This document shows, piece after piece, positions 3 to 30,116 of a DNA stretch of 64,000 nt. Position 1 is the stretch's first letter; the number at the start of each line of letters is the position of its first letter. Source of the stretch: an uncultured Saprospiraceae bacterium (GTDB lineage Bacteria; Bacteroidota; Bacteroidia; Chitinophagales; Saprospiraceae); the NCBI GenBank assembly GCA_937929835.1, contig CALFUU010000170.1, positions 1 through 64,000 on the forward strand, written 5' to 3'. Under the pieces are notes generated by a model, which was not told where the DNA came from, searched no databases, and was given only the letters and a program-made list of their open reading frames with translations. The translations under genes and the position numbers were made by a program.

Positions 3-3000
3 GCAGACTGGTTCTGGCCAACAGAAGTAGTGGATTTAGAGTGTGGAGTGGATTCGTCTCCTCAAGGAATCTATGATTTCTTCAGAGCTGAGTTCGAAGC
101 AACTACACCTTGCCCAGATCCTGAGTCTTGTGATGAGCCGAGTGATCCATACAATAGAGCTGCTAACACTGCAGGTGTATTGAATGCTTTCCCTCAGACT
201 TTAGGTAAAGATGGAAACTTAGAAAATTTCGTTTCTAACTCATGTAACTTAATATTCGACTTTACAGATAACGTATTAGACGCTTGTGGAGAAGACTGCC
301 CAGGTAATCAGAAGATTATCAGAACATGGACTGTATTAGATTGGTGTAACAGTGTTACATTAAATAATACGCAGATCATACATGCAAAGGACAATACTGG
401 TCCAGTAATAGACATGGACGGTGCTGGAGCTACTTCAGTTAGTATGACAGTAGGTGTAAATCCTTGGGGTTGTGTAGCTGAATTTGAGCTTCCAGAACCA
501 GAGCATTTAACTGATAATTGTTCTCCAACTGTTGAGTATACAGTATCAGGACCTGCTAATGTATCTTTTGTTCCAAGAGAAGGAACTCCAGGTGTTTGGG
601 TTGTTTCAGGTGCTCCTAAAGGAACACATACATTCACTTACACTGCAACTGACTGTTGTGGAAATGAAGGCACAGGTACAGTAGTTGTTACAGTAATTGA
701 TAACTCAGCTCCTCAGCCAATCGCTACTCAGAATATTGTTGTAGGATTAACATTCTCTCCAACTAATCCTGAAGCGGGATCAGCTAAGATTTTTGTTGAC
801 CAGATTGATAATGGTTCTCACGATGGAAGTTGTGGACCTGTAATCACAGCGATCAGAAGAGTAGATGGCGACGGATGTGGAAATATCGGTAACAACGGAC
901 ACGATAACAATACTACGTTCTTCAATTTCAACGATTTACCAGATAATCAACAGCCTACAGATCATTCTATAAATGATACGGATGGTGGTCAGTTTGTTAA
1001 GTTCTGTTGTAACGATCTCTTAACTGGAGATGGTGAAGATCTTGATGGTGATGGTGTAAACGATTACGTTAATATCACAGTAGAATTAGGTGTTTGGGAT
1101 GATGCAAATATGGATGGATGGCCAGGTACTCCAGGAGACTTGTTCGCAAGAACATGGGCTACTGTAAGACTAGAAGCTAAAGTAAATCCTGTATTGCAGT
1201 GTCCTCCTAACGCGAGAATAGACTGTAGAGAAGATGAGACTGGTGATTTTGCTATCAGCCAGATCTTAGGTAGAGCAACTGCAAGTACTGCATGTGGTGC
1301 AGTAGATGTAGAGTTCAATGATGTATGTGGATGGGATCAGAATGGTGATGGTGACTTAAACGATACTTTCTTCATGGGAAGTGTAAGTCCTCCAGTCGCA
1401 GATGTAAGTGAAGAGTTTAACAAAGCTTGTCACTATGGTCCTGTTGTAAGAACATGGAATATAGTAGGTACGAATATTAGCTGTAGCCAGATAATAATCA
1501 TTACTGAGCCTACAGAAGTATTCTCAGGTAGTTACTACCTAGTTGATGCTAACGGCAACTATATATTAAATGGTACTAGACCAATTGAGAATGATAACAT
1601 AACATTCCCATTTGAGAGAGATGCAGTTGATATCAATGACGACAACTTTGATGATTTTTCTGAAGTACAAGTAGATTGTATCGATGATTTAGGAAATCCT
1701 GAGCCAACATGGGTTGATTCTCACTGTAGCTTAATTGGATGGTCTCTAGATTCAGATACTATCAACTTCGAAGATGGTGCTTGTAGAAAGATCATTAATG
1801 AGTATTGTGTAATTGACTGGTGTCAGTTTGACCCATCAGGAGGTCCTATTATTCCAAATAATGGTGATTTCAAGGGCAATACTGTTCAACCAGGTAAGTG
1901 GTGCTGGACTGTTATCGGAAAGCTAATAGATCCATATGCACCAGTTGTGACTGCAGCTAATGATATGTTTGATGCTAATCCTGCACCAGGTGGTTCTGGA
2001 GGTTTCCCTTCAGCTAACACTTGTGTAGGTAGTGGAATAACAATGACTGCAACTGCATTTGACGGAAACACTGATGCTGATGGCAATGTTCAAGATGACG
2101 CTTGTCCTAGTTCTTGGTTACAGTGGGTTGCTTTAGTTGATATCAACAATGACTGGTCATTTGATTTTGAGTATAGCTCATTCATTCCTGAAGGTCAGCA
2201 ATTATTTGATGATACAAACGGTAATGGAATTCCAGATGTACAAGTAGGTGAAGGTTCTGATAGTGCTGATGGTCCTAAAGTTGACCAAGGAGACTATACT
2301 ATATCTATACCTGCAGCAATTCCAGCGGATTGTGGTGCTACACAACACAGAGTTGAGTGGACAGTATATGATGGTTGTGGTAACTTAACATCTACGACTA
2401 GTTACTTCACAGTTCAAGACAAGAAGGCTCCAACGCCATTCTGTGTTAACTTAAGTACAGCATTAATGGATATACCTGCGGGTGGATCACCTGAAGATGC
2501 AATGGTTGAGATTTGGGCTATAGATTTCGATAACGGTAGTTTCGATAACTGTACAGGCGATGATGAGTTGTTATTCACATTCACAGATGATGCTTCTACA
2601 GTAAACCCAGAATTCAGAAGTGCTGCTATGAGATTCGATTGTGAAGCTCTAGGTGGTACAGACAATGCACTTGTAACACTTCCTATTTATGTATGGGATG
2701 GTTGCGGTAACAGAGATTTCTGCTTAGTTAACTTGAGAATTATCGATAACAACAATAATTGTCGTGGTACATCAACTGGTAGCCTTATTGCAGGTACAGT
2801 TTCTACAGAGTCTGGTCAGATGGTAGAGAATGTAGAAGTAATGAATGAAGTAATGCCAGGTACAGAACAGACAATGATGATGACTGAGTCTAATGGAGAG
2901 TTCTTCTTCCATGAAGAGGATAACAGAGATTATCAGTTAACTGGTACTAAGAATGATGACTACTCTAATGGAGTAAGTACGATTGATATCGTTATGATTC

Positions 3001-3989
3001 AGAGACACATATTAGGAATCGAAACATTTGATTCTGCTTATGATATGATAGCTGCTGATGTTAACGGTGATAGTAGAATAGATGGAGCTGATCTTGTAGA
3101 GCTTAGAAAATTAGTTCTAGGTATCTATACTGAGCTTCCACAGAATGATAGTTGGAGATTTGTTAATGCTGACCAAACGTTAGATGTAGCAAATCCTTGG
3201 AGCTTCGATGAGACAATTGAAGTTATGCAATTGTCTGCTGATATGAACGATGAGGACTTCATAGGTGTCAAGATTGGTGATGTAAGTGGTGATGTTGTTG
3301 CTAACGCAATAGATGCACCAAATACTGCTAACAGAGTTGCAGGAGCTGTAACGATAGATTTTGACAATGTAGAAGTTGCTGCTGGACAAACTGTACAGTT
3401 AACTGTTACAGCTAATCAAGCTGATCTTTACGGATACCAGTTCACATTGGCTACTCCAGGATTACAACTAGTAGATGTACAGTCTGCTAACTTGAATGTT
3501 ACTGAAGCTAACTTCGGTGTGTTCGGTGATGTTGTAACGACTAGCTGGAATGATACTAAGCCTATGAATGCTACAGGAGAGTTATTCACATTGACATTTA
3601 CTTCTAATGTAGAAGGTCAATTAGCAGAAATTCTTGACTTGAATAGTAGTGTAACTAAGGCTGAAGCATATGTAGGATCTAACTTAAACATCGTTGATGT
3701 AGAGTTAGCAAGTACAAATACAGTTAGTGAGTTTGCTCTTAACCAAAACGAGCCTAACCCGTTCAGTGCTAACACCACTATCGGATTCGTATTGGCAGAA
3801 GCTGCAAATACAACTATGACAGTATATGATGTAACTGGAAAGGTAATTACTGTAATTAGAGGTGACTACCCACAAGGTTATAACGAAATTAAATTGAGTA
3901 AATCTGATTTAGGAGCTAGCGGAGTTCTTTACTATCAATTAGATAGCGGAGACTTCACAGCAACTAAGAAGATGATTGTAATCGAATAG
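3..3989 (+). CDS. Giant T9SS-exported surface protein, 5'-truncated (paralog A)
   Basis: The frame is open to the left edge, so the N-terminus and signal peptide lie outside the window; 1328 residues are visible. Cys-rich Ig/HYR-like beta modules fill most of the length, with signatures RTWTVLDWC near residue 106 and NEYCVIDWC near 600. A module containing PTPFCVNLSTALM sits near 810, and a short carboxypeptidase-regulatory-like beta domain at about 930-980. A dockerin-like pair follows at about 983-1055 (second loop DVNGDSRIDGAD is a textbook 12-residue calcium loop). Next come a cohesin-like domain at about 1113-1236 and a T9SS type A sorting domain at 1245-1328 (NEPNPFS, TVYDVTGK). It should pass the outer membrane through T9SS and be anchored or released at the surface. 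Export is well supported; adhesion or matrix function is inferred. GTG at position 30 is not a credible start because homologous sequence continues upstream. Confidence 0.9.
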   Translation, partial: ADWFWPTEVVDLECGVDSSPQGIYDFFRAEFEATTPCPDPESCDEPSDPYNRAANTAGVLNAFPQTLGKDGNLENFVSNSCNLIFDFTDNVLDACGEDCPGNQKIIRTWTVLDWCNSVTLNNTQIIHAKDNTGPVIDMDGAGATSVSMTVGVNPWGCVAEFELPEPEHLTDNCSPTVEYTVSGPANVSFVPREGTPGVWVVSGAPKGTHTFTYTATDCCGNEGTGTVVVTVIDNSAPQPIATQNIVVGLTFSPTNPEAGSAKIFVDQIDNGSHDGSCGPVITAIRRVDGDGCGNIGNNGHDNNTTFFNFNDLPDNQQPTDHSINDTDGGQFVKFCCNDLLTGDGEDLDGDGVNDYVNITVELGVWDDANMDGWPGTPGDLFARTWATVRLEAKVNPVLQCPPNARIDCREDETGDFAISQILGRATASTACGAVDVEFNDVCGWDQNGDGDLNDTFFMGSVSPPVADVSEEFNKACHYGPVVRTWNIVGTNISCSQIIIITEPTEVFSGSYYLVDANGNYILNGTRPIENDNITFPFERDAVDINDDNFDDFSEVQVDCIDDLGNPEPTWVDSHCSLIGWSLDSDTINFEDGACRKIINEYCVIDWCQFDPSGGPIIPNNGDFKGNTVQPGKWCWTVIGKLIDPYAPVVTAANDMFDANPAPGGSGGFPSANTCVGSGITMTATAFDGNTDADGNVQDDACPSSWLQWVALVDINNDWSFDFEYSSFIPEGQQLFDDTNGNGIPDVQVGEGSDSADGPKVDQGDYTISIPAAIPADCGATQHRVEWTVYDGCGNLTSTTSYFTVQDKKAPTPFCVNLSTALMDIPAGGSPEDAMVEIWAIDFDNGSFDNCTGDDELLFTFTDDASTVNPEFRSAAMRFDCEALGGTDNALVTLPIYVWDGCGNRDFCLVNLRIIDNNNNCRGTSTGSLIAGTVSTESGQMVENVEVMNEVMPGTEQTMMMTESNGEFFFHEEDNRDYQLTGTKNDDYSNGVSTIDIVMIQRHILGIETFDSAYDMIAADVNGDSRIDGADLVELRKLVLGIYTELPQNDSWRFVNADQTLDVANPWSFDETIEVMQLSADMNDEDFIGVKIGDVSGDVVANAIDAPNTANRVAGAVTIDFDNVEVAAGQTVQLTVTANQADLYGYQFTLATPGLQLVDVQSANLNVTEANFGVFGDVVTTSWNDTKPMNATGELFTLTFTSNVEGQLAEILDLNSSVTKAEAYVGSNLNIVDVELASTNTVSEFALNQNEPNPFSANTTIGFVLAEAANTTMTVYDVTGKVITVIRGDYPQGYNEIKLSKSDLGASGVLYYQLDSGDFTATKKMIVIE

Positions 3990-4313: not shown

Positions 4314-7300
4314 ATGAAGTATTATTATACTCTCTCTTTTGAGAAGTTAGCTAGACTAGTTTTTGTAGTCTTTACATTAGTATTATGTCAAGCTAATGTT
4401 GGATTGTCACAGTGTACGCTTTCATGTAACGGAACGACACAGGTATCATTAAGTGCTGATTGTAATGCGATCATTACTCCAAATATGATTTTAAGTGATA
4501 ATGGGGCATCTTGCCCAAGCCCATATCTTAGAGTAGAAGTGTCAGATGAAAATGGCAACCTTATACCAGGTATAAATGAAGTGACAAGTGGTTTTATGGG
4601 TCAAACATTGACTGTCAGTGTGATAGATAATGTACTCAATGATACCAATGATCCTCCTTTAGGTTCTGGAAATACTTGTTGGGGTCTCATACTTATAGAA
4701 GATAAATTTGGACCCTCTATTATGGGAGGTTGTACAGCTGATTTAATGAATATTGAATTAGAATGCGCTGATCTAGCCATATATCCTGGCCCAACCTTCA
4801 CAGACAATTGTGATGGAGACCTTGAGCCATTGTTGCTATCTGAGGATATTACGCCTTGCCCTTCTCCAGATATTATCAAGACTGTAACGAGAACCTATAC
4901 AGCAGTTGACGAAAAGGGCAATAGAGCTGCAAATACGTGTACTGTAGAAATTGCTTTAAGAAGATTTGACATAAACAACGTAACTTTTCCAGTAGACATA
5001 GAGCTACAATGTGATGTTGCAAGTACGTTTGATACAGATTGGAATGGTATAGATGAGAACGAAATTCCTGTTTCAGAGACAGGATCACCGATATATATTT
5101 TTGAAAACCCCAATGGTGAAAGGGATACTACTTTCTTGTTTCCATTTCCAGATGTATACTGTAATACATCTGTTACATTCACTGATGTAATTTTACCAAG
5201 AATTGGTTGTACTCAGAAAGTACTAAGAAACTGGGTAGTACGTGTATGGGAGTGTCCTAACTCTACTATAACTGAGGCTGATCCATTTTCATTTAGTCAG
5301 ACTATTAATATAATAGATAATACACCTCCTGTAATCAATACAACTACAGATGGTAATTGCATGATAAATGGTGTAGATAAAATTACTGTTAGTACTAATT
5401 CGTTGATTACATCTCCTGGTTCAGGTGACTATGGTGATTTTAATTGTGGTGTCACGACAAGTTTATGTTTACCTAGTGCAATAGATAACTGCTTGGATTT
5501 ACATGGCACTTCATCGGGATTAACTAATTGCGAAGGCACTAAAAATCCTGTAGGTTTAAAATATGACCTTACCTATGATTCTGGTTTTATAGCTGATTAC
5601 AATGGTCAAGACTTATTGTTACCTATGGGGACAAGTGTGGTATTGTTTACAGTTTATGATGAGTGTTATAATTCGAGTCAATGTCATTTACCTGTAGAGA
5701 TAATAGATGATACACCACCTATAGCTATTTGTGATCAGAATACAACAGTAAGCTTAACTTCTGGTGGTACTGCATTTGTAGGAGCTAGTTCATTTGATGA
5801 CGGCTCATATGATGATTGCAAGGATCATTGTTCTTTAGTAAGGAAAATGAATCCAGGTACTTGCGAGTGTAGAAGACCTGATATATGCGATTTGGATTTC
5901 TTAGGAGAAAGAAACGGAAGTTATTACTACCTCTCTAGCTATGACATTTCGGCGAGTATAGCCAAGAAAAGAGCTACTGCCTACGGAGGACATCTTGTAA
6001 AATTTGAAGATTCTGAAGAGGAAGAATGGTTAACTGGAGAGGTTAGACGTACTTACTCGGATAGATTCTGGATAGGACTGAAACGAGAGGGGTCTGGTTT
6101 TAGATGGGATGATCATTCATCTTTATCTTACACTAATTGGGCATCAGGACAACCAAGCAATAATGCCGGTGAAGACTGTGTTATGGTAACGCCTGGCAAT
6201 ACATGGAATGATGCATCTTGCGATGTCGAGTTGAGATACGTACTCGAGGTCAGTAGCGATTGTGGATTTGGTTCTACTATTAATTTCTGTTGCTCTGATG
6301 CGGATACTGACCAGATGGTGGTTTTTAGAGTAGTCGATTTCTATGGAAATTTCAATGACTGTATGGTCAATGTTTCTATTCAAGATAAATCAGCTCCAGT
6401 ACTCAATTGTCCACCTAATCGTACAGTAGCTTGCGACTTTATATACAATCAAAATGATTTAAATGAGGCATTCGGTTCTCTTACAACAGGTGAAAGTTGT
6501 AATCCTAATATTGAACCTTCTGTGACGACAAATATTCGAGAGTGTGGAGTCGGAACTATAGAAAGACTATGGACAGCATTTGACTCTAATGGCAGAGAAT
6601 TAGCTCACTGTAAGCAGACAATTACATTCGAAAATACAGATCCATTTCAGTTTGACACAGAGACACAATGTCCAGAAAGCGAAATTACGCTTAATGATTG
6701 TGTAGACCCAGCGACATTAACACCGGCTAGCTTAGGTACTCCAGACTTCTTAAGAGGTCAATGTGATGTAGTCGGTACAGACTTCGATGATCAATTGTTT
6801 TCTTTTAACAACACGAGCGGTAATGCGGTCTGCTTTAAACTTATCCGTACTTGGGAAATTATTGATTGGTGTCAAGTCAATCCTAATGGAACCTTCCGTA
6901 CTTGGAATTGTGTACAAGTAATCAAAGTTGTAGATCCGAGTAAGCCACAAGCTAGATTTTCTTTTGCACCCGACTTAGATTTTGATGACAAAGGAACTCC
7001 TGTGTTTTCAGTATTTGACTGTGATGGAGGACAAGTAAGTTTTGACTTTTCTGCAGAAGATGCGTGTACACCAGCTAACGACCTGCAATACTCTTATACA
7101 GTTACAGGTCCTGATGGGGTCTCTACCGCTCAAGTAGACGGAACAGGTGCCAACGGAAGTATTTCTGGACAATTTGCAGTGGGAGTCAATACCGCATACC
7201 TCACGTACTATGATAATTGTGGTAACGCTTGTACGGTTCATCAGGAGTTTATCGTGGCCAATAGAAAAGCAGCAACTGCTTATTGCTTAAGTGGGGTAGC

Positions 7301-8816
7301 TGTGGACATTATGCCAATATCAACTACAGGTGGACAAGTTCCAGATGATGCAATGATCGAATTGTGGGCTTCGGATTTTGACGCGGGTAGTTCTCATCCA
7401 TGTGGATATCCTGTGCACTTATCTTTTACAGAGGATATTAATAATACAAATAGAACTTTCACTTGTAACGATATAGGCTTGCAAGAAGTAAGAATATATG
7501 TCACGACGATTGCGCCTGATGGGAGTTTAGTGCAGACTTTCTGTACAACTTTTGTTGACATTCAGAATAATCACGCTGTTAATCCTTGCCAACAATTTAC
7601 TACGGTAAATGTGGAGGGAACAATCTCTACTGAGACAGAACAATTAATTGAAGACGTACAAGTAACATTAGAAGGTGGAAACACTGACGTGTATACCAAC
7701 ACTAATGGAGAGTATGCATTTACAGCAATGGGTACGGGCGGTGATTATATTGTCAATCCAGCTAATAATACTATTCCATTGAATGGTGTATCTACACTTG
7801 ACTTGGTAATGATTCAGAGACACATACTAGGAGTAGAAACTCTAGATTCTCCATACAAGATTATTGCTGCAGATATTAATGCTAATAATATCATCGATGG
7901 AGTGGATCTTGTAGAACTAAGAAAATTAATCTTAGGAATATACACTGAGTTTCCAGAGAATGAGTCTTGGAGATTCGTTGATAAGGATTACCAATTCCAA
8001 AATACTGAGGCTCCTCTAGAAGAAGATTTTTCAGAGAATTATGAGATTATCAATCTTGGACAAAATATGTCTATTGACTTTGTCGCTGTAAAAATCGGTG
8101 ATGTTGATGGTACAGTAGATCAGCTTTTGAATGGCCAAACGAATTCATTGTACAGTACTAGCCAGTCATCTACAATCAATGTAGATTTCATTGAGCAAGA
8201 AATCGCTGACAATCAAGTAGTAGCGCTACCGTTTACAATCGCCAATTCTACTTCAGTCACTGGTTTCCAATTTGAGTTAGATTTTGATCCACTTCAAGTG
8301 GAAGTACAAAGCATTCAAGGGGTTAATATAGAATTGAATGAATCAAATTACAATCTACAGAATGGAACTCTAGCTATAAGTTGGTCAAGTAATGTACCAG
8401 TATTAGATGCTCAGTTTGAGGTTACATTCAGAACTTTAGGACCTGTTAATTTGGATGAACTCTTTAGCATTAATCAGCAAAGTGCACTCAATGCTGAAGT
8501 ATATGATGCATCAATGAATACGCATAAGTTGTTGATGACACCAACTACTAACATTACTGAGTTAGTGCTTCAGAACAACCCTAACCCTTTTAGTACTGAA
8601 ACAGAATTGATGTTCTACTTAAATGAAAAGTCCGTTACGGATATCATCATATCTGATGTACAAGGAAGAGTTGTAAAGTCTATGACTCAAGAGTTAGCAT
8701 CTGGATTGAATACAATGACGTTAAATAAGACAGATCTTGGAAACCCAGGTATCTATTACTTGACTGTAAGAACGTCTACGCATAACGAAATGATTAAACT
8801 AGTTCTTCTGGACTAA
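4314..8816 (+). CDS. Giant T9SS-exported surface protein with C-type lectin domain (paralog B)
   Basis: 1500 residues, complete. A signal peptide covers about residues 1-33. Cys-rich Ig/HYR-like modules follow, including the family signature RTWEIIDWC near 845. A C-type lectin domain is inserted at about 525-650: WIGLK, GEDCV and TWNDASC are recognisable, but the usual EPN/QPD sugar-specificity triplet reads QPS, so calcium-dependent sugar binding is uncertain. The C-terminal part matches the paralogs: carboxypeptidase-regulatory-like segment (~1100-1150), dockerin-like pair (~1155-1225), cohesin-like domain (~1285-1405, with the typical FQFELDFDP strand) and T9SS type A sorting domain (~1420-1500, NNPNPFS). 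It is the only one of the four with the lectin insert, which suggests a glycan-contact role at the surface. Export is seen in the sequence; ligand and role are inferred. Confidence 0.92.
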   Translation: MKYYYTLSFEKLARLVFVVFTLVLCQANVGLSQCTLSCNGTTQVSLSADCNAIITPNMILSDNGASCPSPYLRVEVSDENGNLIPGINEVTSGFMGQTLTVSVIDNVLNDTNDPPLGSGNTCWGLILIEDKFGPSIMGGCTADLMNIELECADLAIYPGPTFTDNCDGDLEPLLLSEDITPCPSPDIIKTVTRTYTAVDEKGNRAANTCTVEIALRRFDINNVTFPVDIELQCDVASTFDTDWNGIDENEIPVSETGSPIYIFENPNGERDTTFLFPFPDVYCNTSVTFTDVILPRIGCTQKVLRNWVVRVWECPNSTITEADPFSFSQTINIIDNTPPVINTTTDGNCMINGVDKITVSTNSLITSPGSGDYGDFNCGVTTSLCLPSAIDNCLDLHGTSSGLTNCEGTKNPVGLKYDLTYDSGFIADYNGQDLLLPMGTSVVLFTVYDECYNSSQCHLPVEIIDDTPPIAICDQNTTVSLTSGGTAFVGASSFDDGSYDDCKDHCSLVRKMNPGTCECRRPDICDLDFLGERNGSYYYLSSYDISASIAKKRATAYGGHLVKFEDSEEEEWLTGEVRRTYSDRFWIGLKREGSGFRWDDHSSLSYTNWASGQPSNNAGEDCVMVTPGNTWNDASCDVELRYVLEVSSDCGFGSTINFCCSDADTDQMVVFRVVDFYGNFNDCMVNVSIQDKSAPVLNCPPNRTVACDFIYNQNDLNEAFGSLTTGESCNPNIEPSVTTNIRECGVGTIERLWTAFDSNGRELAHCKQTITFENTDPFQFDTETQCPESEITLNDCVDPATLTPASLGTPDFLRGQCDVVGTDFDDQLFSFNNTSGNAVCFKLIRTWEIIDWCQVNPNGTFRTWNCVQVIKVVDPSKPQARFSFAPDLDFDDKGTPVFSVFDCDGGQVSFDFSAEDACTPANDLQYSYTVTGPDGVSTAQVDGTGANGSISGQFAVGVNTAYLTYYDNCGNACTVHQEFIVANRKAATAYCLSGVAVDIMPISTTGGQVPDDAMIELWASDFDAGSSHPCGYPVHLSFTEDINNTNRTFTCNDIGLQEVRIYVTTIAPDGSLVQTFCTTFVDIQNNHAVNPCQQFTTVNVEGTISTETEQLIEDVQVTLEGGNTDVYTNTNGEYAFTAMGTGGDYIVNPANNTIPLNGVSTLDLVMIQRHILGVETLDSPYKIIAADINANNIIDGVDLVELRKLILGIYTEFPENESWRFVDKDYQFQNTEAPLEEDFSENYEIINLGQNMSIDFVAVKIGDVDGTVDQLLNGQTNSLYSTSQSSTINVDFIEQEIADNQVVALPFTIANSTSVTGFQFELDFDPLQVEVQSIQGVNIELNESNYNLQNGTLAISWSSNVPVLDAQFEVTFRTLGPVNLDELFSINQQSALNAEVYDASMNTHKLLMTPTTNITELVLQNNPNPFSTETELMFYLNEKSVTDIIISDVQGRVVKSMTQELASGLNTMTLNKTDLGNPGIYYLTVRTSTHNEMIKLVLLD

Positions 8817-10533: not shown

Positions 10534-10545
10534 CAATTATCTGAT

Positions 10546-16810: not shown

Positions 16811-16832
16811 TCTCCCTGCGTGAGTAGGGAGA
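16811..16832 (+). repeat. Perfect 7-bp hairpin in the leader of paralog C
   Basis: TCTCCCT and AGGGAGA pair perfectly around an 8-base loop, 39 bases before the ATG of the giant gene. It overlaps an in-frame GTG that would otherwise be an alternative start, which argues for leader structure rather than coding sequence. Possible mRNA stabiliser or translational control element. Confidence 0.45.
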
Positions 16833-16870
16833 TCTCGTTACTCATTTTATTAACCAAAACTTTTTATCCC

Positions 16871-19800
16871 ATGGTGTTGACCGATATTGTGGGTAAGGTA
16901 GGCGTGGTATGCAAGTATGTGCTGTGTTCTTCTTTACTCATCTTAAATCTAGGAAACCAACTTGCAGCTTCAGAAGCTGCACCTCCTCCTCCTTTAGTAT
17001 GTGATGACCAAATTAATGTCTCTTTGGGTCAAGATTGCGAAGCTGTAATTACAGCCGACTTGATTCTAGAAGGCACTTTTACTGGTACATTCACTGTTCT
17101 TATTTCTGGAGTCTCTGGCTCCACAATTACCGCTCCAGGTAACTATGTAGTCACCGTCACTGATGGTACTAATAGTTGTTGGGGGAATATTCTAGTCGAA
17201 AACAAATTAGCACCTGAGTGTAGTGACCAGACTGTACAATTACCATTTTTGTGTGGTGATATAGAAGGTCTTTTGCCTCCAGCTATTACCTCACCTTCTT
17301 GTGTTACTATTGCTGACATCAGGTTTAGTGATCAATTTACAGATGGTGGGTGTGCTGCTTCTACTCTTGTCAGGACTTGGATTATCGAAGGCGATAATGG
17401 TGCGATTGGAAATTGTACAAGTACATATACCACGTCTCCATTTGATGCAGCGGCTATAAGATGCCCGTTACAAGAACCAGAAACTTTTGGTTGTGATGCA
17501 GATCTAAGCCCTGATGGTATCTACGAAAGATTCTTTAAAGAATGTTTCTTAACACTAGCGCCATCTATACAATCTGATCCAGAATCTTTTCCAGCTGAAG
17601 TACAGATATGTATAGATGCAGGTAACAATGCTGCTTACCCTCATTACTACGATGGGACAAGTACGATCAGTCTAAATGGAGCTGTGTGTAATACATTTGC
17701 TGAATATAGAGACATATTGCTTCCTGTCTGTGATGCAGGTCCAGGTTGCGATGGAGCTAACAAAATATTGAGAGAATGGTCTATCTATGAGTGGTGTGAC
17801 TCAGATGGTGATGGAAATCCTTTGGTAAAAAGATGCAATCAAGTATTGGCGGTAACAGACAATGTTGCTCCAGACTTAGAAGTTTCAGACTTTACTTCTT
17901 CAGTAGATCCTTGGGGATGTACTGCGGATATTGTTTTCCCTAAGCCTACTCACTTATTTGATGACTGCTCATCATTCGTTGATTATACGATTACAACAAC
18001 TACGACTGTCGTTACTCCAGCTGGAGACGGTACAGGTGCAGGCACTGGTACTACTGGTGGAACTGGCTCTGGAACTGGTTCTGGTTCTGGCGGTGGTAGC
18101 ACAACCACTGTAATATCTGATCCAGGACTAGCAGGGGTTGCTATAACTTTTGATCCTGACCTGGGTTTTATTGCAGCAGGAGTACCTAGAGGAACTTATA
18201 CTTTCTATTATAACGCTTTTGATTGTTGTGGTAATACAACAGTAGAAGCCGTACAGGTGACAGTAGTAGATGCAACGCCACCAGTAGCCATTACAAAGCA
18301 AGACATTGTAGTTTCACTTATTCCAAATCCAGGAAGCGTAGGTGAACCAGGGATAACAAAAATATTTGCTGAGAATATCGATAACGGCTCATTTGATGGT
18401 TGTGGCGATGTTCAGTTAGAAATTAGAAGAGAAGTTGATGGCTGTGGATTTGATAGTAACCTTACTTTCAACAACGACGGTCATATGCAGGATGATTCAC
18501 TTGATATGGATGGTGGAAAATTTGTCAACTTCTGTTGTAATGATCTAGTTGAGTTTGGTATAGATGAAGACGGTGATGGTGCTGTTGATTATGCTAGATT
18601 CAGAGTATATCTACGTGTGTGGGATGATGGTGATGGAGACGGCACTTTTGGGTCTGCAGGTGATAACTTCAGTGAAGTATGGTCATTTGTAAGATTGGAA
18701 GACAAGTCTAATCCTACTATCGTATGTCCTGGACCTATAGAGATAGAATGTGATGGAGATATCTCAGATATGTCTCAGCTCGGAAGAGCAACGGCATTCA
18801 ATTCTTGCGGTGAATTGGCGACTGGTCACAGAGATATAAATGTGGAATTGTCAAATTGCTTTAGCGGAACTGTCACTAGAGAATGGTTTATAGTTGGAAA
18901 CGAAAGTATCAACTGTATGCAGACAATTACAAAATTAGGCTCTACTCCAGCAGATATAGAATTGACTTTCCCAGATGATAGGATTTTATCTTGCTCAGAA
19001 GAGCTTCCAGATGATGTTCCGACGTGGGTAGCTGGACCTTGTGATCAGATTGCTTATAATGTAGATAGAGATACATTCTTCTTCCAAGAAGGTGCTTGCT
19101 TCAAGATTCTTAACTACTGGACTGTCATCAACTGGTGTACTTATGAGCCAGACAATCCTACTTCAGATGGTATATATTCTGACGTACAAGTGATCAAGAT
19201 TTTTGATGAATCAGCACCAGTAATTGCATGCCCTACAGGTACTCAAGTACTAACGACTATGACAGGTGAGTGCTCTGGACCAGTTATGCTAACCAGCTCT
19301 GCAACGGATGAAGGCCTATGTGCTTCTAACAGTTTAAGATGGGAAGCTCAGGTTGACCTTCAGAGTGATTGGAATATCGATTTTGTATTTTCTAGTAGTA
19401 TGAGTCCATCTTCAGGATTTTATATACCTCCTTCTCTTTCTGGAGAAGAAGTGAAAATAAATGTGCCTGAAGGAGATTCTGGTGAACATAGAGTATTGTG
19501 GAGGGTTTCTGACGGATGCGGAAACAACACGACATGTACTACTTTCTTCACTGTAGCTGATAATGTTCCCCCTACACCATACTGTGTAAACCTAAGTACT
19601 GCTTTAATGGAAACTGGTTCTGTTGATATATGGGCTTGTGATTTTGATCTAGGCGCCTTTGATAACTGTTCAGCACAAGAAGATTTGAGATTTACATTTA
19701 CAGATGTTCCACCTGCGGATGATCCTGACTATAATCCTTTAGCACAATGTTCTGCAAGAACTTTTGATTGTGACGATGTGATTAATCCAGCAGGTACTAT

Positions 19801-21124
19801 TGTACCGGTCAATGTATATGTGTGGGATACAGATGGCAATTCTGATTTCTGTACAGTATTCTTAACGCTAGTTGATAATAATGGCAACTGTCCTGATGGC
19901 TCTGGAAGTATCTCTATTTCTGGAGAAATATCTACAGAAACGGGACAGATGGTAGAAGATGTAGAAGTATCTCTTGTTAGTAACCAGCCTAACTATCCTA
20001 TAAGTTCTATGACTGACGATTCAGGAATCTATATGTTTGTAACTAACCCTGTAGACCGAGACTATACAGTTTCTGGTACTAAGAATTCAGACTATCTCAA
20101 TGGCGTGAGTACTCTAGATTTAGTTATGATACAAAGACACATATTGGGTATAGAACCAATAACGAGTCCATACAAGTTGGTTGCAGCTGATGTTAATGAT
20201 GATCAGAATATTAATGGTCTTGATCTTGTAGAACTAAGAAAGTTGATACTCGGTATCTACACTGAATTACCACAGAATGACAGTTGGAGATTTATTAATA
20301 CAGGAACGTCTATGGATATACAATTCCCATGGCCACTAGATGAAATCAGAGAAATCTTTGCAGTTCAGAATAATATGATGACAGAGGATTTTGTCGGGGT
20401 CAAAGTTGGAGATGTAAATGATGATGCCGTAGCTAATGCTATGCAAGCACCTGCGGTAGGTAACAGATCCAATGCGGAGCTGACACTAGATTTTGCAGAC
20501 CAAGTGTATGCAGAAGGCGATTTTGTAGAGATGACGCTAAGCTCAGAGCAGGCTTCCGCTCTAGCAGGTATGCAATTTGCATTACAATTTGATGGTTTAG
20601 AGTTAGTTGATCTAGCTGGAAAAGACCTTGAGATTTCAGATAATAATTTTGCGCTAATAGCTGATGATGTAATGAGCTTCTCTTGGAACTCATTAAGTAA
20701 TGTTAATGCCCAAGACTTGATGACAATCAAGTATAGAGCTACTAAGAGTGGAAAGTTGAGTGAAAGCATTACACTTGCATCTACTACAAATGCTGAAGCC
20801 TACATAGGTGGAGCATTAACTACAATCCCCGTCACACTATCCGGCCAAGATAATTCTGAACACGAATTTGTGCTTTATCAAAATAATCCAAATCCATTCA
20901 GAGGAATGACCACTATCAGTTTCAATCTGCCAAGTGAGAGTCCTGTGACCATTACAGTGACTGATGTAACTGGAAAATTGGTTTATGCTGAAGAAGGCGT
21001 GTTCCAGAAAGGAATGAATTCTCTTGACTTCAATACTCAAGGGTGGAACGCATCAGGTCTATTGTACTATACAATAGAAACTGACAACCATTCTGCTACG
21101 AACAAGATGATTGTCTTGAAGTAA
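16871..21124 (+). CDS. Giant T9SS-exported surface protein with Gly/Ser/Thr linker (paralog C)
   Basis: 1417 residues from the ATG at 16871, which places a signal peptide at the N-terminus (hydrophobic VLCSSLLILNLG, cleavage near residue 34); an in-frame GTG at 16820 lies in the leader hairpin. Ig/HYR-like modules carry REWSIYEWC near 300 and NYWTVINWC near 748. A low-complexity Gly/Ser/Thr linker at about 375-418 interrupts a module that is continuous in the paralogs. TPYCVNLSTALM lies near 902. The tail has a dockerin-like pair (~1073-1145; loop DVNDDQNINGLD), a cohesin-like domain (~1201-1326) and a T9SS type A sorting domain (~1332-1417, NNPNPFR). Export is clear; structural or adhesive function is inferred from the domain set. 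Confidence 0.9.
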   Translation: MVLTDIVGKVGVVCKYVLCSSLLILNLGNQLAASEAAPPPPLVCDDQINVSLGQDCEAVITADLILEGTFTGTFTVLISGVSGSTITAPGNYVVTVTDGTNSCWGNILVENKLAPECSDQTVQLPFLCGDIEGLLPPAITSPSCVTIADIRFSDQFTDGGCAASTLVRTWIIEGDNGAIGNCTSTYTTSPFDAAAIRCPLQEPETFGCDADLSPDGIYERFFKECFLTLAPSIQSDPESFPAEVQICIDAGNNAAYPHYYDGTSTISLNGAVCNTFAEYRDILLPVCDAGPGCDGANKILREWSIYEWCDSDGDGNPLVKRCNQVLAVTDNVAPDLEVSDFTSSVDPWGCTADIVFPKPTHLFDDCSSFVDYTITTTTTVVTPAGDGTGAGTGTTGGTGSGTGSGSGGGSTTTVISDPGLAGVAITFDPDLGFIAAGVPRGTYTFYYNAFDCCGNTTVEAVQVTVVDATPPVAITKQDIVVSLIPNPGSVGEPGITKIFAENIDNGSFDGCGDVQLEIRREVDGCGFDSNLTFNNDGHMQDDSLDMDGGKFVNFCCNDLVEFGIDEDGDGAVDYARFRVYLRVWDDGDGDGTFGSAGDNFSEVWSFVRLEDKSNPTIVCPGPIEIECDGDISDMSQLGRATAFNSCGELATGHRDINVELSNCFSGTVTREWFIVGNESINCMQTITKLGSTPADIELTFPDDRILSCSEELPDDVPTWVAGPCDQIAYNVDRDTFFFQEGACFKILNYWTVINWCTYEPDNPTSDGIYSDVQVIKIFDESAPVIACPTGTQVLTTMTGECSGPVMLTSSATDEGLCASNSLRWEAQVDLQSDWNIDFVFSSSMSPSSGFYIPPSLSGEEVKINVPEGDSGEHRVLWRVSDGCGNNTTCTTFFTVADNVPPTPYCVNLSTALMETGSVDIWACDFDLGAFDNCSAQEDLRFTFTDVPPADDPDYNPLAQCSARTFDCDDVINPAGTIVPVNVYVWDTDGNSDFCTVFLTLVDNNGNCPDGSGSISISGEISTETGQMVEDVEVSLVSNQPNYPISSMTDDSGIYMFVTNPVDRDYTVSGTKNSDYLNGVSTLDLVMIQRHILGIEPITSPYKLVAADVNDDQNINGLDLVELRKLILGIYTELPQNDSWRFINTGTSMDIQFPWPLDEIREIFAVQNNMMTEDFVGVKVGDVNDDAVANAMQAPAVGNRSNAELTLDFADQVYAEGDFVEMTLSSEQASALAGMQFALQFDGLELVDLAGKDLEISDNNFALIADDVMSFSWNSLSNVNAQDLMTIKYRATKSGKLSESITLASTTNAEAYIGGALTTIPVTLSGQDNSEHEFVLYQNNPNPFRGMTTISFNLPSESPVTITVTDVTGKLVYAEEGVFQKGMNSLDFNTQGWNASGLLYYTIETDNHSATNKMIVLK

Positions 21125-25037: not shown

Positions 25038-28000
25038 ATGAAAAAATTTAATTTTCTAATTCTATGTTTATTGACCACTACATTTAGTAGCGGTCTTTCT
25101 GCATTTACTACAGATGCTTCTTCAGCTTGCGTTACAGCAAGTTGCAAAGACGCTACCTTGTCTCTAGATGGTACTGGTTGCGTCGATATCACAACACTTT
25201 CCATAAATAATGGATCTTCAGCTACCGGCAACATTGTGTCTATGTCGCTAGATAGGACAAGATTTTGTTGTGAGGATGTATTGGCTGGTCCTCAGGTTGT
25301 CACCTTGACCATCGCCGCTTCTTGTGTAGATCCAGTGACTGGTATATCATGCTCCGAGATAGCAACTTGCCAATCAACGGTAACAGTGCAAGATGAGTTT
25401 GCACCCGTAATTTTCTGTCCAGAAGATAAGACGCTAACTCTACAACCAGGCCAATGTGGTAGTTTCAATACACAACCGACACCTTTGGTGATAGATAACT
25501 GTGGCGCTACAATTACTGGTAGTGGTGACCCTGGGTTTGTTTCAGTAGCTTGTAATGCAGATTGTAATGGCCCTGCAAGTGGTACTGCTACCACTTACAG
25601 CTATGTTGCGGTTGATGAAGCAGGTAATACGTCTACTTGCGAGTTTACAGTAACACTTCAGGATTATACACCATTTAGTGGATCACTTTCTTGTAATGAT
25701 CAAGTTAATCTTTCTGCCAATCTAGATTGCGAATTTGAGCTGACACCACAAATGTTGCTTCAGGGAGATTATGGTTGTTACTCTTGTTTTGATGTAACAA
25801 CGGAAGAAATTCACACAACTTCTGCTTTAGCTGAGTTTAGAATGACCGTAACAGATCCTTGCACTGGGGTTAGTTGTTGGGGTATGGTGACTGTTGAAGA
25901 TAAAAATGACCCGACTCTCGCTTGCGCTGGGTGTACTGATCCTAATGTTTCAGACCCTGATTGTATTCTTAATTGCGTAGAGCTGCCTCTCTTCACTACA
26001 CTGAATAGAGACAATGGTGTTTTAGGATACGATGAAGGTCTCTTAGATGATTTGATCCCCACAGATAGAGAAGATTTTATCGCTGAGTTTGTTTCAGAAT
26101 CTTGTGGACAACAGGTTACTGCAGACTTTAGTGACCAAGTAACAACATCAAATAATTGTGGAGATGGAGCACTTTTGACAAGGACTTGGACTATTCAGTT
26201 CACTAGAGCAAATGGTAGCCTCGGTTCACTAAGTTGCGAACGCTATTATAGATTCGATGACGTACAGCCTTTGACAGTGAAGGACCTAGAAGGAAATATA
26301 GAAGGGGTAGAAGCACCACACGATACGATTGCCCCAGGCCTATATGTGCCATTTGTGGAAAATGATATAGATGCAGGCGTAATTGTAGAGGATGTCATTT
26401 TGATGCCAAAGCAAATCGTCGAGATACCTGATTGTGGAGTAGGTATAAGTCCAGCAGAAATTGCTGATTATTTTGATAATCCGCTTACCGTGGATCAGGA
26501 TACCGATGATGATAATATTGACCCAGATGAATTTGATGTAGACTGTGTTATCGAAAATAATGAAGGTATTTGGTTGGCCTACCCACACTATTACATCCAA
26601 GGAATAAGACCAGATGGGCCACATGCACAACCGATTACGGATAGGGTATGTAACCAGGTAGTGGATTATGTCGATACACCCATAGAGGCTTGTGCTGTAG
26701 GATGCGAGGGTAACCAAAGATTACTGAGGGTATGGACTGTATTAGACTGGTGTAACAACACATTTTTTGAATATAACCAAGTAATAAAAGTAGAAGATCA
26801 GATAGCACCAACAATGGAAGTCCCACCAATTGTAGCGAGTGTAGACCCTTGGGATTGTGAAGCGACTATCGCTCTTCCAGCACCCACAAAATTAAATGAT
26901 GCCTGTGATGACAATCTGACTTACAGCATAGGATTTGTAGAGGGTGCTCTAGAAGTTACAGGTAATGTAGATGATGGATTCGTTGTACACGGTGTCCAAG
27001 CTGGAGAGACCTTGATACAGTATATCGCTGAAGATTGTTGTGGCAATCAGAGTAAAGTATTTACAACAATTTCTGTTTCTGATATAACGCCGCCAATTCC
27101 CGTTACCATTCAAAACTTAGTGGTAGAGTTGACGAGTTTTGGTACTCCAGGTCAAGGTGTTGATGGCGCAGCTAAGCTTTACGCAGAAGATGTAGATAAT
27201 GGTAGCTATGATAGTTGTAACAGGGTGACCGTAGATATAAGAAGGACTCCGGTCTGTGATAAAGATGATGCAGAATGGGCTCCATTTGTTACGTTCTGCT
27301 GTGCAGATCTTGCGGGTGCATCTAGTACGATTGTGGATATAGAAATGCGAGTAAGAGATCTCTTTGGAAACGAAGCCTTTATTTGGAGCTCAGTGACTTT
27401 AGAGGATAAGGCGGGTGGCACAGGTTCTTGTCCACTCGATGTAGTTATCAAGTGTACGGATGATATCTGGAATTTTGATGTAACTGGCGGTACGCCGAGA
27501 AGTTTCACTACATGTCAGGAAGTAACTCAAGCTGTTGATACGCTTCAGGTATTCGAGGACACGCAGCCAAGTAGAAAGAATGCTAATGATGGTGGCCCTT
27601 CTCTCGGACAATATTTTGGTGTTAGGGTAGAAGCCTATGATCCTAGTTGTGGTTTTGGAGCTTGGGAGAGGGAGTTTGATGGTTGCACGCAATGGATTAT
27701 TGTAGAACCTGAAGGTGGTGTGACTATCGATGCTGAAGGTCGATTCGTTATACCTTCTAGTTTTGATGATACCACTTTACAGTTTCCTGCTGATGTAGAA
27801 GTCGATTGTGACGCTTACGATACAGGTGAGCCTACGTGGTTAGAGAGTAGTTGTAATCTTGTCGGATTCACAGTAGAGTCAGAAGAATTTAATTTTGAAG
27901 GAGATGCTTGTCTCAAGATAGTCAATACCTATACCGTCATAGATTGGTGTGCTTATGATCCGACCGATCCTGATCTCAACGATATAGTTGATGCGCCAGC

Positions 28001-30116
28001 AGCGGGTGAGGACTTTGACAGATTTATTCACGATAGTGGAGAGGTAGAGGGTCGATATATCAGCAATCAAATTATCAAAGTTATTGACACTGAGGCACCT
28101 CTAATAGCCACAGACGATGTTGCCTTTGATACCAACATAGAATGCACAAATAAGGGCCTAACCCTCAGTGCAATTGGAATTGATAATGGAGAGTGTAGTA
28201 GTGCTTGGTTGAGTTGGGATATAGAATTAGATTTCTTTGGAGATTGGACCATAGATGCGACTTATAGTAGTCGAGTCTCAGCTGTACTCCCGAGTGGAGA
28301 TCCTAACCCAAGTTTTATACCTAAGACCAATAATGGTGAAGCAATTACAATCGCCATCCCCGATGGTATCAGTGCTAGTAATGCTCAGCATAGAGTAGAG
28401 TGGAAGGTCAATGATGGTTGTGGCAATACAACTAGCCATACTTCTTACTTTACGATACAGGATAACAAGGCTCCGACGCCTATGTGCCTCAATCTAGGTA
28501 CTGCTGTTATGGAAAATGGTGAAGTGGAGTTATGGGCTATTGATTTCGATAATAAGAGTTTTGATAACTGTAGTGGTGAGAATCTCTTATTCACGTTTAC
28601 AGATGTGGCCCCACCATCACGATGTGATGCAGAGTATGATAGCAATACACAACTCATGTGGTACAATGGCACCTTCTGGTACTATGATGCGAGTCAGATT
28701 GAAGATGATGTCCAAGAATGCGGTGTGACAGGTGCAGGTGAATTTCAGAACATCGAAGATTATGGAGGAGATGTGCATAGATGGGAGCCAGGCTTACAAA
28801 GCGCAGGAAAGATATTTACCATAGATGAATTTGATAATGGATTTTTGGATGTACCTATATATGTATGGGATGAAGAAGGTAATAGAGATTTCTGTTTGGT
28901 AAGATTACGAGCAGATGATAATGACGGTGGCTTAAGTGCAGGCGTTGTAGCAGGAACAGTAAGAACCGAGACTGCTCAGTCAATAGAAGGTGTCGAAGCC
29001 AATCTTATGAGTAACAGTCCATCTTACCCTAGGGCAGATATGACAGAGCAAGATGGTCGATTTGAGTTTGTAGAAAACGAAATGTCTAGAGACTACCAAG
29101 TAAGTGGTATCAAGGACGGTGACGATGCTAATGGTGTCAGTACCATTGACCTAGTTAAAATACAGAGACACATTCTGGATATAGAAAGACTAGATAGTCC
29201 ATATAAGATGATAGCTGCTGATGTCAATGGCGATAAGCGTATCAACGGACAAGACCTTGTCGAGCTCAGAAAGTTAATCTTAGGTATCTATGTAGAATTA
29301 CCACAGAGTGAAAGTTGGATGATTTTAAATGCCGAAAAGCAATTAGACATAGATAATCCTTGGGACTATGATTTGACTAGAGCAATTCAGAATCTGAGCT
29401 TAGATCTTATGCAAGAAGACTTTATAGGAGTCAAAATAGGAGATGTCGATAATGATGTCAATCTCGAGTTAGCAACACCTACCGGTACTAATGGCAAAGT
29501 ACTTAATCTAAGTGCCCCTATGGGAATGGTGCAAGCTGGTGAAGAGATTTCTCTTACGCTAAGCACAGAGCAAGCTGTCAGTGGATACCAATTTACTTTG
29601 GAGACAGGCGAGATGGAGCTCCTTGACGTAGCAGGTATATCTGAAGATAAATTGGCTGTCCACAAGAGTGCTATTACCGTGAGTGAAAACTTGACGGAGC
29701 AGAAAGTAGGAGAGTTGATGACAATTACCTTGAGAGCCAATCAGAGTGGCGCAGTAGCAGATATGATCGGTCTATCAAGCAGAATTACAAAAGCGGAAGC
29801 TTATGTAGGGCCTCAATTAGAAAAGGTAGACTTATCCCTTAGTGGAGTCTCTCAAGGAGAATTCAGCCTAAGACAAAACGAGCCGAACCCTTTCAGTGCG
29901 GAGACAACTATACATTATACTTTGCCAGAGGCGAGTGCTGTTACAGTGACACTGATGGACGTAACAGGTCAGATTATTAATACTATAGAAGCTGATGGCA
30001 ACGCAGGTGCTAATGCGTTGAAATTAGAAAGAACTGGATTGAGTACAGGTCTTATCTATTACAGATTACAGGCTGGTAACAATGTAGCAACAAGACATAT
30101 GATTGTGATTGAGTAA
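25038..30116 (+). CDS. Giant T9SS-exported surface protein, longest copy (paralog D)
   Basis: 1692 residues. A signal peptide (KKFNFLILCLLTTTFSSG) covers about residues 1-22. It has an extra N-terminal Cys-rich region with an HYR domain (APVIFCPEDKTLTL near 123), then the module shared with paralogs B and C that begins SCNDQVNLSA near 217. RVWTVLDWC lies near 563, NTYTVIDWC near 962 and TPMCLNLGTAVM near 1147. The common tail is a dockerin-like pair (~1357-1428; second loop DVNGDKRINGQD), a cohesin-like domain (~1486-1604) and a T9SS type A sorting domain (~1607-1692, NEPNPFS). It has its own long upstream region and a downstream terminator. Surface location is well supported; role is inferred. 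Confidence 0.93.
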   Translation: MKKFNFLILCLLTTTFSSGLSAFTTDASSACVTASCKDATLSLDGTGCVDITTLSINNGSSATGNIVSMSLDRTRFCCEDVLAGPQVVTLTIAASCVDPVTGISCSEIATCQSTVTVQDEFAPVIFCPEDKTLTLQPGQCGSFNTQPTPLVIDNCGATITGSGDPGFVSVACNADCNGPASGTATTYSYVAVDEAGNTSTCEFTVTLQDYTPFSGSLSCNDQVNLSANLDCEFELTPQMLLQGDYGCYSCFDVTTEEIHTTSALAEFRMTVTDPCTGVSCWGMVTVEDKNDPTLACAGCTDPNVSDPDCILNCVELPLFTTLNRDNGVLGYDEGLLDDLIPTDREDFIAEFVSESCGQQVTADFSDQVTTSNNCGDGALLTRTWTIQFTRANGSLGSLSCERYYRFDDVQPLTVKDLEGNIEGVEAPHDTIAPGLYVPFVENDIDAGVIVEDVILMPKQIVEIPDCGVGISPAEIADYFDNPLTVDQDTDDDNIDPDEFDVDCVIENNEGIWLAYPHYYIQGIRPDGPHAQPITDRVCNQVVDYVDTPIEACAVGCEGNQRLLRVWTVLDWCNNTFFEYNQVIKVEDQIAPTMEVPPIVASVDPWDCEATIALPAPTKLNDACDDNLTYSIGFVEGALEVTGNVDDGFVVHGVQAGETLIQYIAEDCCGNQSKVFTTISVSDITPPIPVTIQNLVVELTSFGTPGQGVDGAAKLYAEDVDNGSYDSCNRVTVDIRRTPVCDKDDAEWAPFVTFCCADLAGASSTIVDIEMRVRDLFGNEAFIWSSVTLEDKAGGTGSCPLDVVIKCTDDIWNFDVTGGTPRSFTTCQEVTQAVDTLQVFEDTQPSRKNANDGGPSLGQYFGVRVEAYDPSCGFGAWEREFDGCTQWIIVEPEGGVTIDAEGRFVIPSSFDDTTLQFPADVEVDCDAYDTGEPTWLESSCNLVGFTVESEEFNFEGDACLKIVNTYTVIDWCAYDPTDPDLNDIVDAPAAGEDFDRFIHDSGEVEGRYISNQIIKVIDTEAPLIATDDVAFDTNIECTNKGLTLSAIGIDNGECSSAWLSWDIELDFFGDWTIDATYSSRVSAVLPSGDPNPSFIPKTNNGEAITIAIPDGISASNAQHRVEWKVNDGCGNTTSHTSYFTIQDNKAPTPMCLNLGTAVMENGEVELWAIDFDNKSFDNCSGENLLFTFTDVAPPSRCDAEYDSNTQLMWYNGTFWYYDASQIEDDVQECGVTGAGEFQNIEDYGGDVHRWEPGLQSAGKIFTIDEFDNGFLDVPIYVWDEEGNRDFCLVRLRADDNDGGLSAGVVAGTVRTETAQSIEGVEANLMSNSPSYPRADMTEQDGRFEFVENEMSRDYQVSGIKDGDDANGVSTIDLVKIQRHILDIERLDSPYKMIAADVNGDKRINGQDLVELRKLILGIYVELPQSESWMILNAEKQLDIDNPWDYDLTRAIQNLSLDLMQEDFIGVKIGDVDNDVNLELATPTGTNGKVLNLSAPMGMVQAGEEISLTLSTEQAVSGYQFTLETGEMELLDVAGISEDKLAVHKSAITVSENLTEQKVGELMTITLRANQSGAVADMIGLSSRITKAEAYVGPQLEKVDLSLSGVSQGEFSLRQNEPNPFSAETTIHYTLPEASAVTVTLMDVTGQIINTIEADGNAGANALKLERTGLSTGLIYYRLQAGNNVATRHMIVIE

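Follow-up and report, generated by a model that had tools for sequence, protein, structure and literature searches.

A PorP/SprF-linked tandem-cohesin scaffoldin and a family of giant dockerin-tailed T9SS proteins: a putative non-cellulosomal surface display system in Saprospiraceae

Introduction

In the cellulosome, dockerin-bearing enzymes are assembled on a tandem-cohesin scaffoldin. The use of cohesins and dockerins outside cellulosomes is already known as well, and chains combining a HYR-associated dockerin with a cohesin, scaffoldins of the type IX secretion system (T9SS) kind and archaeal scaffoldins have each been proposed elsewhere. The present work concerns a stretch of 64,000 nucleotides from an uncultured Saprospiraceae bacterium (GenBank assembly GCA_937929835.1, contig CALFUU010000170.1, positions 1 to 64,000 of the forward strand, hereafter the window), in which four genes for giant T9SS proteins end in a common tail with a dockerin and a cohesin-fold domain, and a tandem-cohesin scaffoldin encoded elsewhere in the same genome, on which these proteins are probably docked. 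Compared with the cellulosome, the system shares a tandem-cohesin scaffoldin, many dockerin-bearing proteins and one signature common to the dockerins of a genome. It differs in that the dockerin proteins showed no catalytic domain and the Pfam matches of the scaffoldin no carbohydrate-binding module (CBM), and in its T9SS signals, the cohesin on each dockerin protein and the predicted nesting of the dockerin in a CnaB/transthyretin-like domain.

Three other systems come close. The "Planctosome" of freshwater Planctomycetes is presented as a hypothetical non-cellulosomal system whose adaptor carries a dockerin, HYR and a cohesin on one chain (PMC6461901). The same combination on one chain is found here, and LTD and P domains are present too; in the Planctosome, however, the docked parts are peptidases and section 10 of that account names no tandem-cohesin scaffoldin (PMC6461901), whereas the Saprospiraceae proteins carry T9SS signals, form a large dockerin-tail family with a scaffoldin and include no peptidase that we could find. 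In Candidatus Stygibacter (Cloacimonadota), a cellulosome-like system is described with a tandem-cohesin scaffoldin attached through a conserved C-terminal domain of the T9SS kind (PMC8542988). Our scaffoldin is alike in both respects, but the Stygibacter dockerins sit on enzymes and its scaffoldin bears CBMs (PMC8542988), while here the dockerins sit on giants in which no catalytic domain was found. Finally, a study of ANME archaea reports scaffoldin-like proteins that combine a dockerin with as many as 5 cohesins and discusses a role for them in organising the extracellular space (PMC9012536); the combination of dockerin and cohesins is shared, but that system is archaeal and its docked parts include S-layer and transporter-component proteins. 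Among the open-access literature matches listed, no account of a dockerin-tail/scaffoldin system in Saprospiraceae was found, and the only one to mention dockerins or cohesins in this family is a metagenome count of cellulosome-like modules (PMC8547425).

The dockerin tail and its predicted structure

The tails of the four window proteins (paralogs A to D, Table 1) follow a single order in alignment A1: CnaB/carboxypeptidase-regulatory-like strands come first and are followed by the dockerin, by a segment of 50 residues (SWRFV...DFIGVKIGDV) and by a beta-sandwich, with a T9SS type A sorting domain at the end. The Pfam profile Dockerin_1 (PF00404, cut-off 22.9 bits) is exceeded by A, C and D and narrowly missed by B, and the type A sorting domain TIGR04183 scores above cut-off in all four (30.5-36.9 bits), which bears out the surface-export signal attributed to them in the preliminary description of this DNA. 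As for the cohesin profile PF00963, none of the four tails reaches its cut-off of 24.1 bits and B alone obtains a score (18.2 bits), and other tails of the genome pass it, one paralog with 33.7 bits.

Four such proteins had been noticed in the window, but a larger family is encoded by the genome: its 22 PF00404 matches comprise 17 complete tails, two tails cut by contig ends (C92 and C178), a second match within one of the 17 frames and two tail-less dockerins. The latter (C40:65535 and C191:2030, loci L009 and L018) lie in frames of 343 and 591 amino acids devoid of cohesin and sorting domain. Since the C92 and C178 tails, which are nearly identical, both stop at contig ends, the assembly appears prone to break at tails, and the count of 19 is likely to be a minimum. 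Ahead of the tail, the proteins vary widely, with HYR, DUF11, DUF7507, SprB, LTD, P-domain, C-type lectin and similar modules. In line with the earlier statement that no enzymatic module is attached, no catalytic domain was recognised among the families listed for the 17 proteins (scanned as 19 pieces, with the 25 commonest families pooled and per-protein tables for 10 of the 17; the pieces of paralog A, at its 5' end, and L258:8117, at the locus end, being incomplete), and none of the families was recognised as a glycoside hydrolase.

Tail A, alone among the window tails, was modelled with AlphaFold2 (406 residues, alignment of 105 tails), giving a predicted local distance difference test (pLDDT) score of 95.3 and a predicted template modelling (pTM) score of 0.84. 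In this model, residues 191-316 match solved cohesins (6kgf_A, Z 10.8, root-mean-square deviation (rmsd) 2.8 over 121 residues; 4fl4_L, Z 10.6; 3l8q_D and 4uyp_C, 10.3; 5lxv_C, 9.8), thereby supporting the earlier view that the post-dockerin domain is cohesin-like, and residues 320-406 match the C-terminal domains of T9SS proteins, among them PorU (6za2_A, Z 10.3). When the whole tail was compared to the PDB with Foldseek, a Clostridium perfringens cohesin construct (2w1n) came first, followed mostly by antibody chains, which was resolved by VIA. The dockerin resembles solved dockerins by sequence (4uyp_B, E 2.4e-6), and its calcium loop 2 is canonical, D97 and D108 being present in 105 of 105 aligned tails.

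The first 186 residues were also folded separately (pLDDT 96.0, pTM 0.90). Solved domains of about 80-95 residues align across a range of about 165 residues of this model in VIA-align, the ranges of which give the first and last aligned residues only: 79 of the 81 residues of 5aq0_A, the transthyretin-like domain of human carboxypeptidase D (rmsd 1.9, Z 7.0, model range 5..169), 89 of the 95 residues of the CnaB2 domain 8bdw_A (Z 7.2, 3..170) and 79 of the 82 residues of 3e8v (Z 7.0, 5..168). Because near-whole domains of some 80 residues thus span the dockerin (residues 62-120), we read the latter as inserted in a CnaB/transthyretin-like domain whose last strands would be supplied by the conserved segment following the dockerin. 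Z values of 7-8 for the host domain are insufficient as proof of its fold, and the weight is on the near-complete domain coverage. Consistent with such nesting, the PF13620 matches of paralogs A, B and C break off at position 51-53 of the 82 profile positions, and high-ranking couplings (238 tails) connect the part preceding the dockerin with the segment following it, e.g. V19-G166 and E40-I169, with a modest enrichment (9 of the top 100, about 4.5 expected). The tail order first given for the four genes holds for the dockerin, the cohesin-fold domain and the sorting domain, but the model places the dockerin within the Ig-like domain and not after it. Foldseek searches with the nested unit returned the clostridial scaffoldin X-module-dockerin structures 5k39_B and 5m0y_B at ranks 7 and 22. 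These also pair an Ig-like module with a dockerin, but the whole superposes poorly (rmsd about 12), and the clostridial X module precedes its dockerin, whereas here the dockerin would be inserted inside the module.

Two readings of the tail on its own arise from these data. In the first one, the tail would be a rigid self-contained stalk, i.e. a folding or spacer unit ahead of the sorting domain, with no docking in trans, as is compatible with the rigid prediction of both the whole tail and the nested unit and with couplings by which both the dockerin (I104-V176) and a strand of the cohesin (V176-T226) are tied to the linker 171-179. In the second one, put forward in the preliminary description, the dockerin of one tail would bind the cohesin of another to form head-to-tail fibres with no separate scaffold. 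Both modules are indeed on one chain in all 17 complete tails, the cohesin fold is well matched in the model, and Q224 (model numbering), in a strand of the tail cohesin, is invariant in 105 of 105 tails despite the variability of the rest of the domain; we take this residue to be at the site where known cohesins touch dockerins. Against such pairing, the 200 top-ranking couplings within the tail (238 tails) include 6 between dockerin and cohesin, compared with about 20 expected from the number of such pairs. This is a weak negative, as the analysis is shallow, the dockerin is too conserved to vary much and other distant module pairs are likewise rare (5 between the cohesin and the part preceding the dockerin, for instance). 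Besides, tail cohesins are much more variable than dockerins, with a mean share of the commonest residue of 0.43 versus 0.70.

The scaffoldin and its locus

The idea that no separate scaffold takes part finds no support in the genome, which contains a gene for a scaffoldin of 2014 amino acids with tandem cohesins (L031:4224-10268, contig C116, minus strand). In the order of transcription, C116 carries a dockerin-tail gene (10540-15480), the scaffoldin gene and a porP/sprF gene (3183-4175). The scaffoldin matches PF00963 above cut-off (110.4 bits over 5 stretches), CHU_C (69.6) and SprB (46.9), and carries a type B sorting domain (TIGR04131, 48.9 bits, above cut-off); a profile built on its own repeats delineates 8 tandem cohesin modules, and a profile of these modules with nine relatives relates them by sequence to solved cohesins (5nrk_A, E 1.4e-6). 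Its neighbour matches PorP_SprF with 156.8 bits and T9SS_PorP above cut-off.

Such loci recur in the family. In 61 scaffoldin regions (besides the own locus, those of the 40 other genomes with the best scores and 20 selected by hand among the 49 left over, one of which was taken at its second-best place), a porP/sprF gene, recognised by similarity to the own PorP/SprF, lies at most 1500 nucleotides downstream of the scaffoldin gene in 49, a proximity reminiscent of the SprB-kind type B proteins that are linked to PorP/SprF. A dockerin-tail gene precedes the scaffoldin gene on the same strand within 1500 nucleotides in 26 of the 61 regions (more than 600 nucleotides being available in 50) and follows porP within 2500 nucleotides in 19, either arrangement being found in 39. 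All recognised genes are co-stranded in 61 of 61 regions.

The genome holds a second possible socket, a protein of 267 amino acids in which a single scaffoldin-like cohesin is combined with a T9SS type A domain (L263:10107-10910, contig C13), flanked by two genes that resemble glycosidases by eye.

A genome-specific dockerin signature

Of 285 tails with few gaps, 238 were retained after removal of near-copies, 114 of these could be assigned to a genome, and 89 belong to 13 genomes with at least 4 tails each. Among pairs less than 60% identical overall (333 from the same genome and 3581 from different genomes), the dockerins of one genome resemble each other more than those of other genomes (0.694 versus 0.627; z 11.6; 0 of 300 permutations as high), and this applies to all 13 genomes. 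The excess is less marked in the two parts of the host domain (+0.034 and +0.031) and is, on average, absent from the tail cohesins (0.246 versus 0.243, +0.003) and the sorting domains (0.350 versus 0.365, -0.015). An earlier pass with fewer labelled tails agrees (dockerin 0.693 versus 0.626; tail cohesin 0.248 versus 0.241, z 1.5), and the dockerin effect amounts to 0.069 with cohesin and sorting-domain identity as covariates, the largest of 500 permutations being 0.017.

In a scan of the whole tail, five positions beat every permuted maximum, and all of them are in the dockerin: 79, i.e. position 18 of repeat 1, and 105, 106, 110 and 111, i.e. positions 9, 10, 14 and 15 of repeat 2. Position 18 is a known specificity determinant. 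Positions 10 and 11 are reported as such in known dockerins (PMC8063739). The signature is taken to consist of these five single positions; a broader claim, that all twelve canonical contact positions stand out, was dropped (mean excess 0.138 versus 0.066, Mann-Whitney P 0.058). In the own genome, R79, G106 and E111 occur in 17 of 17 dockerins, while of the 10 dockerins sampled from a same-genus genome (G032), all show K79 and T105 and 9 show A106. At some positions, other genomes contain a mixture, with R4/K3 and R3/K2 at position 79 in two of them (G082 and G080, respectively). All 8 reciprocal best pairs between the own genome and G032 differ at the signature, and only 2 share at least 40% identity over the cohesin and sorting domain. 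In both of these, the dockerin is closer to the mean of its own paralogs than to its counterpart: for the paralog A pair, 60% identical over the cohesin and sorting domain, the dockerins share 63%, against means of 65% and 75% with their own paralogs. Recent gene conversion is unsupported as the cause of this likeness, four-fold third bases at identical residues being barely more alike within genomes (0.376) than between them (0.356), well short of the agreement that recent conversion should produce; in the middle segment, the third-base excess is somewhat larger (0.410 versus 0.353).

Plugs that share one code on otherwise diverged proteins suggest a common socket, and the dockerins of one genome most likely share one partner in trans. 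The stalk reading is hence improbable: a spacer role would leave unexplained both the genome-specific signature at recognition positions and the tandem-cohesin gene nearby. Head-to-tail pairing is, in our estimation, slightly harder still to uphold, given the few dockerin-cohesin couplings, the greater variability of the tail cohesins, the existence of a separate scaffoldin and a signature that the tail cohesin does not, on average, follow, which disfavours it as the partner.

Co-occurrence of the tail and the scaffoldin

The same tail order was looked for in 100 genomes of the family, including the own one. All match alignment A1, and 89 do so at E below 1e-40, a line chosen after the values were known; the other 11 match weakly (best E 1e-9 to 4e-34), mostly through the sorting domain judging by the scores. 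Among culturable relatives, Portibacter marinus has tails as well as a tandem-cohesin gene (L049), and tails are also present in Lewinella cohaerens. A scaffoldin match (alignment A3, ten scaffoldins) at E 1e-15 or better was obtained in 90. Both parts are thus present in 89 genomes, neither in 10, the scaffoldin only in one (G071) and the tail only in none, with a Fisher P of 6e-13 that assumes an independence of the genomes which does not exist. An rpoB tree covering 27 of the 30 genomes chosen for it (in the other three, rpoB is missing or short) nests G006, which lacks both parts, beside G062, which has both; G022, counted as lacking, holds weak versions of the two (tail 4e-34, cohesins 3e-11).

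Across 296 genomes of the phylum, with 6 candidates scored per genome, the tail was found at E 1e-30 or better in 8, namely five of the six listed members of the same family and three others. Outside the family, both parts were found solely in G309, of another family of the same class, and there within one frame of 1432 amino acids (L264:5992-10287) comprising a scaffoldin-like cohesin, a nested dockerin tail and a tail cohesin, possibly a fusion of both halves of the system.

Proposed model and alternative explanations

The explanation that we favour, and deem probable, is a non-cellulosomal surface display in which adhesin-like giants with dockerin tails are docked on one shared, PorP/SprF-linked scaffoldin. 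Each giant T9SS cargo would consist of a variable adhesin-like front and a constant tail made of the nested dockerin, the cohesin-fold domain and the type A sorting domain, the dockerin and its host domain presumably forming one rigid unit. The dockerins are predicted to plug into the tandem cohesins of the common scaffoldin (8 cohesins, SprB repeats, type B sorting domain), which would itself probably be attached to the co-encoded outer-membrane PorP/SprF protein. The outcome would be a calcium-dependent surface array presenting many different giants, with a predicted adhesive role, on a common scaffold. The scaffoldin is most likely the shared partner, as it is encoded between the gene for the plug and that for the outer-membrane anchor. 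Type A sorting domains are normally removed on secretion and may separately attach the protein to the surface, so that docking may serve to organise or cross-link proteins that are anchored beforehand, instead of providing the anchor. In a more elaborate version, which we hold to be doubtful, the coat would be branched, calcium-set and two-layered: the scaffoldin would nucleate adhesins via their nested dockerins, the tail cohesins would take up further dockerins, and the code, altered jointly in every plug of a genome, would insulate the coats of different species.

Several observations weigh against docking on the shared scaffoldin. Of the pair of dockerin calcium loops announced in the preliminary description, only the second is canonical; loop 1 is degenerate, its position 5 being Leu or Met in 81 of the 105 tails aligned. 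A dockerin-tail gene is adjacent in 32 of 41 regions of the first batch, against 7 of 20 in the lower-scoring one, and the first figure is biased upward because nine of the ten seeds of the search profile A3, i.e. all but the own scaffoldin, were chosen near tails. In the control, neither a dockerin tail nor a cohesin occurs in 29 rpoB loci (185 kb), but this control is small and genomes without the tail contribute 11 of the loci. Co-occurrence reflects few independent events, since genomes lacking both parts cluster on the rpoB tree (4 changes among the 27 genomes, at least 3 of them forced), and G071 has a scaffoldin-like frame of 2458 amino acids with four cohesin matches while no dockerin was found in its genome; that gene, on contig C464, may lack its start, the first match opening at base 93 of this contig. 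Beyond the family, tail and scaffoldin travel separately, two genomes having the tail only (G163 and G169) and one the scaffoldin match only (G160), calls that hold at the thresholds used. Despite the averages, tail cohesins are more alike within the genome in 7 of 13 genomes (up to +0.213, G049), as are sorting domains in 9 of 13. In addition, old gene conversion with saturated synonymous sites may account for the likeness of the dockerins.

Residue co-variation between the dockerin signature and the scaffoldin cohesins (53 genomes) was also sought; the best pair, dockerin 78 and column 40, reached z 7.5 and 7.4 in two runs, but was dropped as evidence, for the controls are nearly as high (paired with the sorting domain and the tail cohesin, dockerin 78 attains z 6.1 and 5.8, respectively) and clade structure could explain the signal. 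A value so close to its controls leaves room for a genome-specific partner other than the scaffoldin, such as a component of the T9SS or of the outer membrane, or some surface protein other than a cohesin: the signature points to a shared partner without naming it, and porP/sprF is linked to the same loci. We nevertheless give such a partner as little credence as head-to-tail pairing. The scaffoldin is the richest source of cohesins found and is encoded beside a dockerin gene; the sorting domain, which is what the secretion machine reads, is on average without such a signature; and cohesins are, to our knowledge, the only class of dockerin partners.

Features of the window

The coordinates of the four genes and of their tail modules are given in Table 1. 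The 5' truncation of paralog A follows from the window start being the start of its contig (C170). Two further T9SS proteins are encoded in the window, one of 814 amino acids with a type A domain and a sortilin/VPS10-like region (41770-44214), and one of 1551 amino acids (51858-56513) in which an N-terminal DM13 domain is accompanied by repeats of some 110 residues, around a dozen as judged by eye, a dockerin being absent among the Pfam matches of the latter.

Table 1. Genes for the giant T9SS proteins of the window and modules of their tails
Feature	Positions	Strand	Remarks and evidence
Paralog A, giant T9SS protein	3..3989	+	Open frame of 1328 aa (amino acids); 5' end truncated by contig start
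Paralog A, CnaB/transthyretin-like host domain (predicted), first part	2778..2951	+	PF13620 positions 2-53 of 82, below cut-off; VIA-align
Paralog A, dockerin (predicted as inserted)	2952..3128	+	PF00404 28.1 bits; helices in AlphaFold2 model
Paralog A, host domain (predicted), last strands	3129..3284	+	SWRFV...DFIGVKIGDV; VIA-align ranges; couplings with first part
Paralog A, cohesin-fold domain	3333..3716	+	Model residues 191-316 versus solved cohesins, Z 9.8-10.8
Paralog A, T9SS type A C-terminal domain	3726..3986	+	TIGR04183 35.4 bits; PorU 6za2_A, Z 10.3
Paralog B, giant T9SS protein with C-type lectin domain (residues 554-643)	4314..8816	+	1500 aa; Lectin_C 58.5 bits
Paralog B, dockerin	7767..7943	+	PF00404 21.5 bits, slightly below cut-off 22.9
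Paralog B, cohesin-fold domain	8160..8546	+	PF00963 18.2 bits, 21.6 in genome search, both below 24.1; alignment A2
Paralog C, giant T9SS protein	16820..21124 (alternative start 16871)	+	1434 aa
Paralog C, dockerin	20084..20260	+	PF00404 28.5 bits
Paralog C, cohesin-fold domain	20465..20848	+	Alignment A2 to modelled tail A; no own profile match
Paralog D, giant T9SS protein with HYR-like domains	25038..30116	+	1692 aa; HYR_4C 38.3 bits
Paralog D, dockerin	29115..29291	+	PF00404 25.6 bits
Paralog D, cohesin-fold domain	29487..29843	+	Alignment A2; no own profile match

Significance

Saprospiraceae are common in water and sludge. If the proposed docking is true, a whole bacterial family would display its largest proteins by means of cohesin-dockerin docking and not through one anchor per protein, which would explain why these genomes hold many giant genes with one constant tail. 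It would represent a non-enzymatic use of the cellulosome principle and a natural case of one plug-socket code being rewritten in step over many genes. The family would also provide new orthogonal dockerin-cohesin pairs, among them one whose dockerin is kept rigid by the domain enclosing it.

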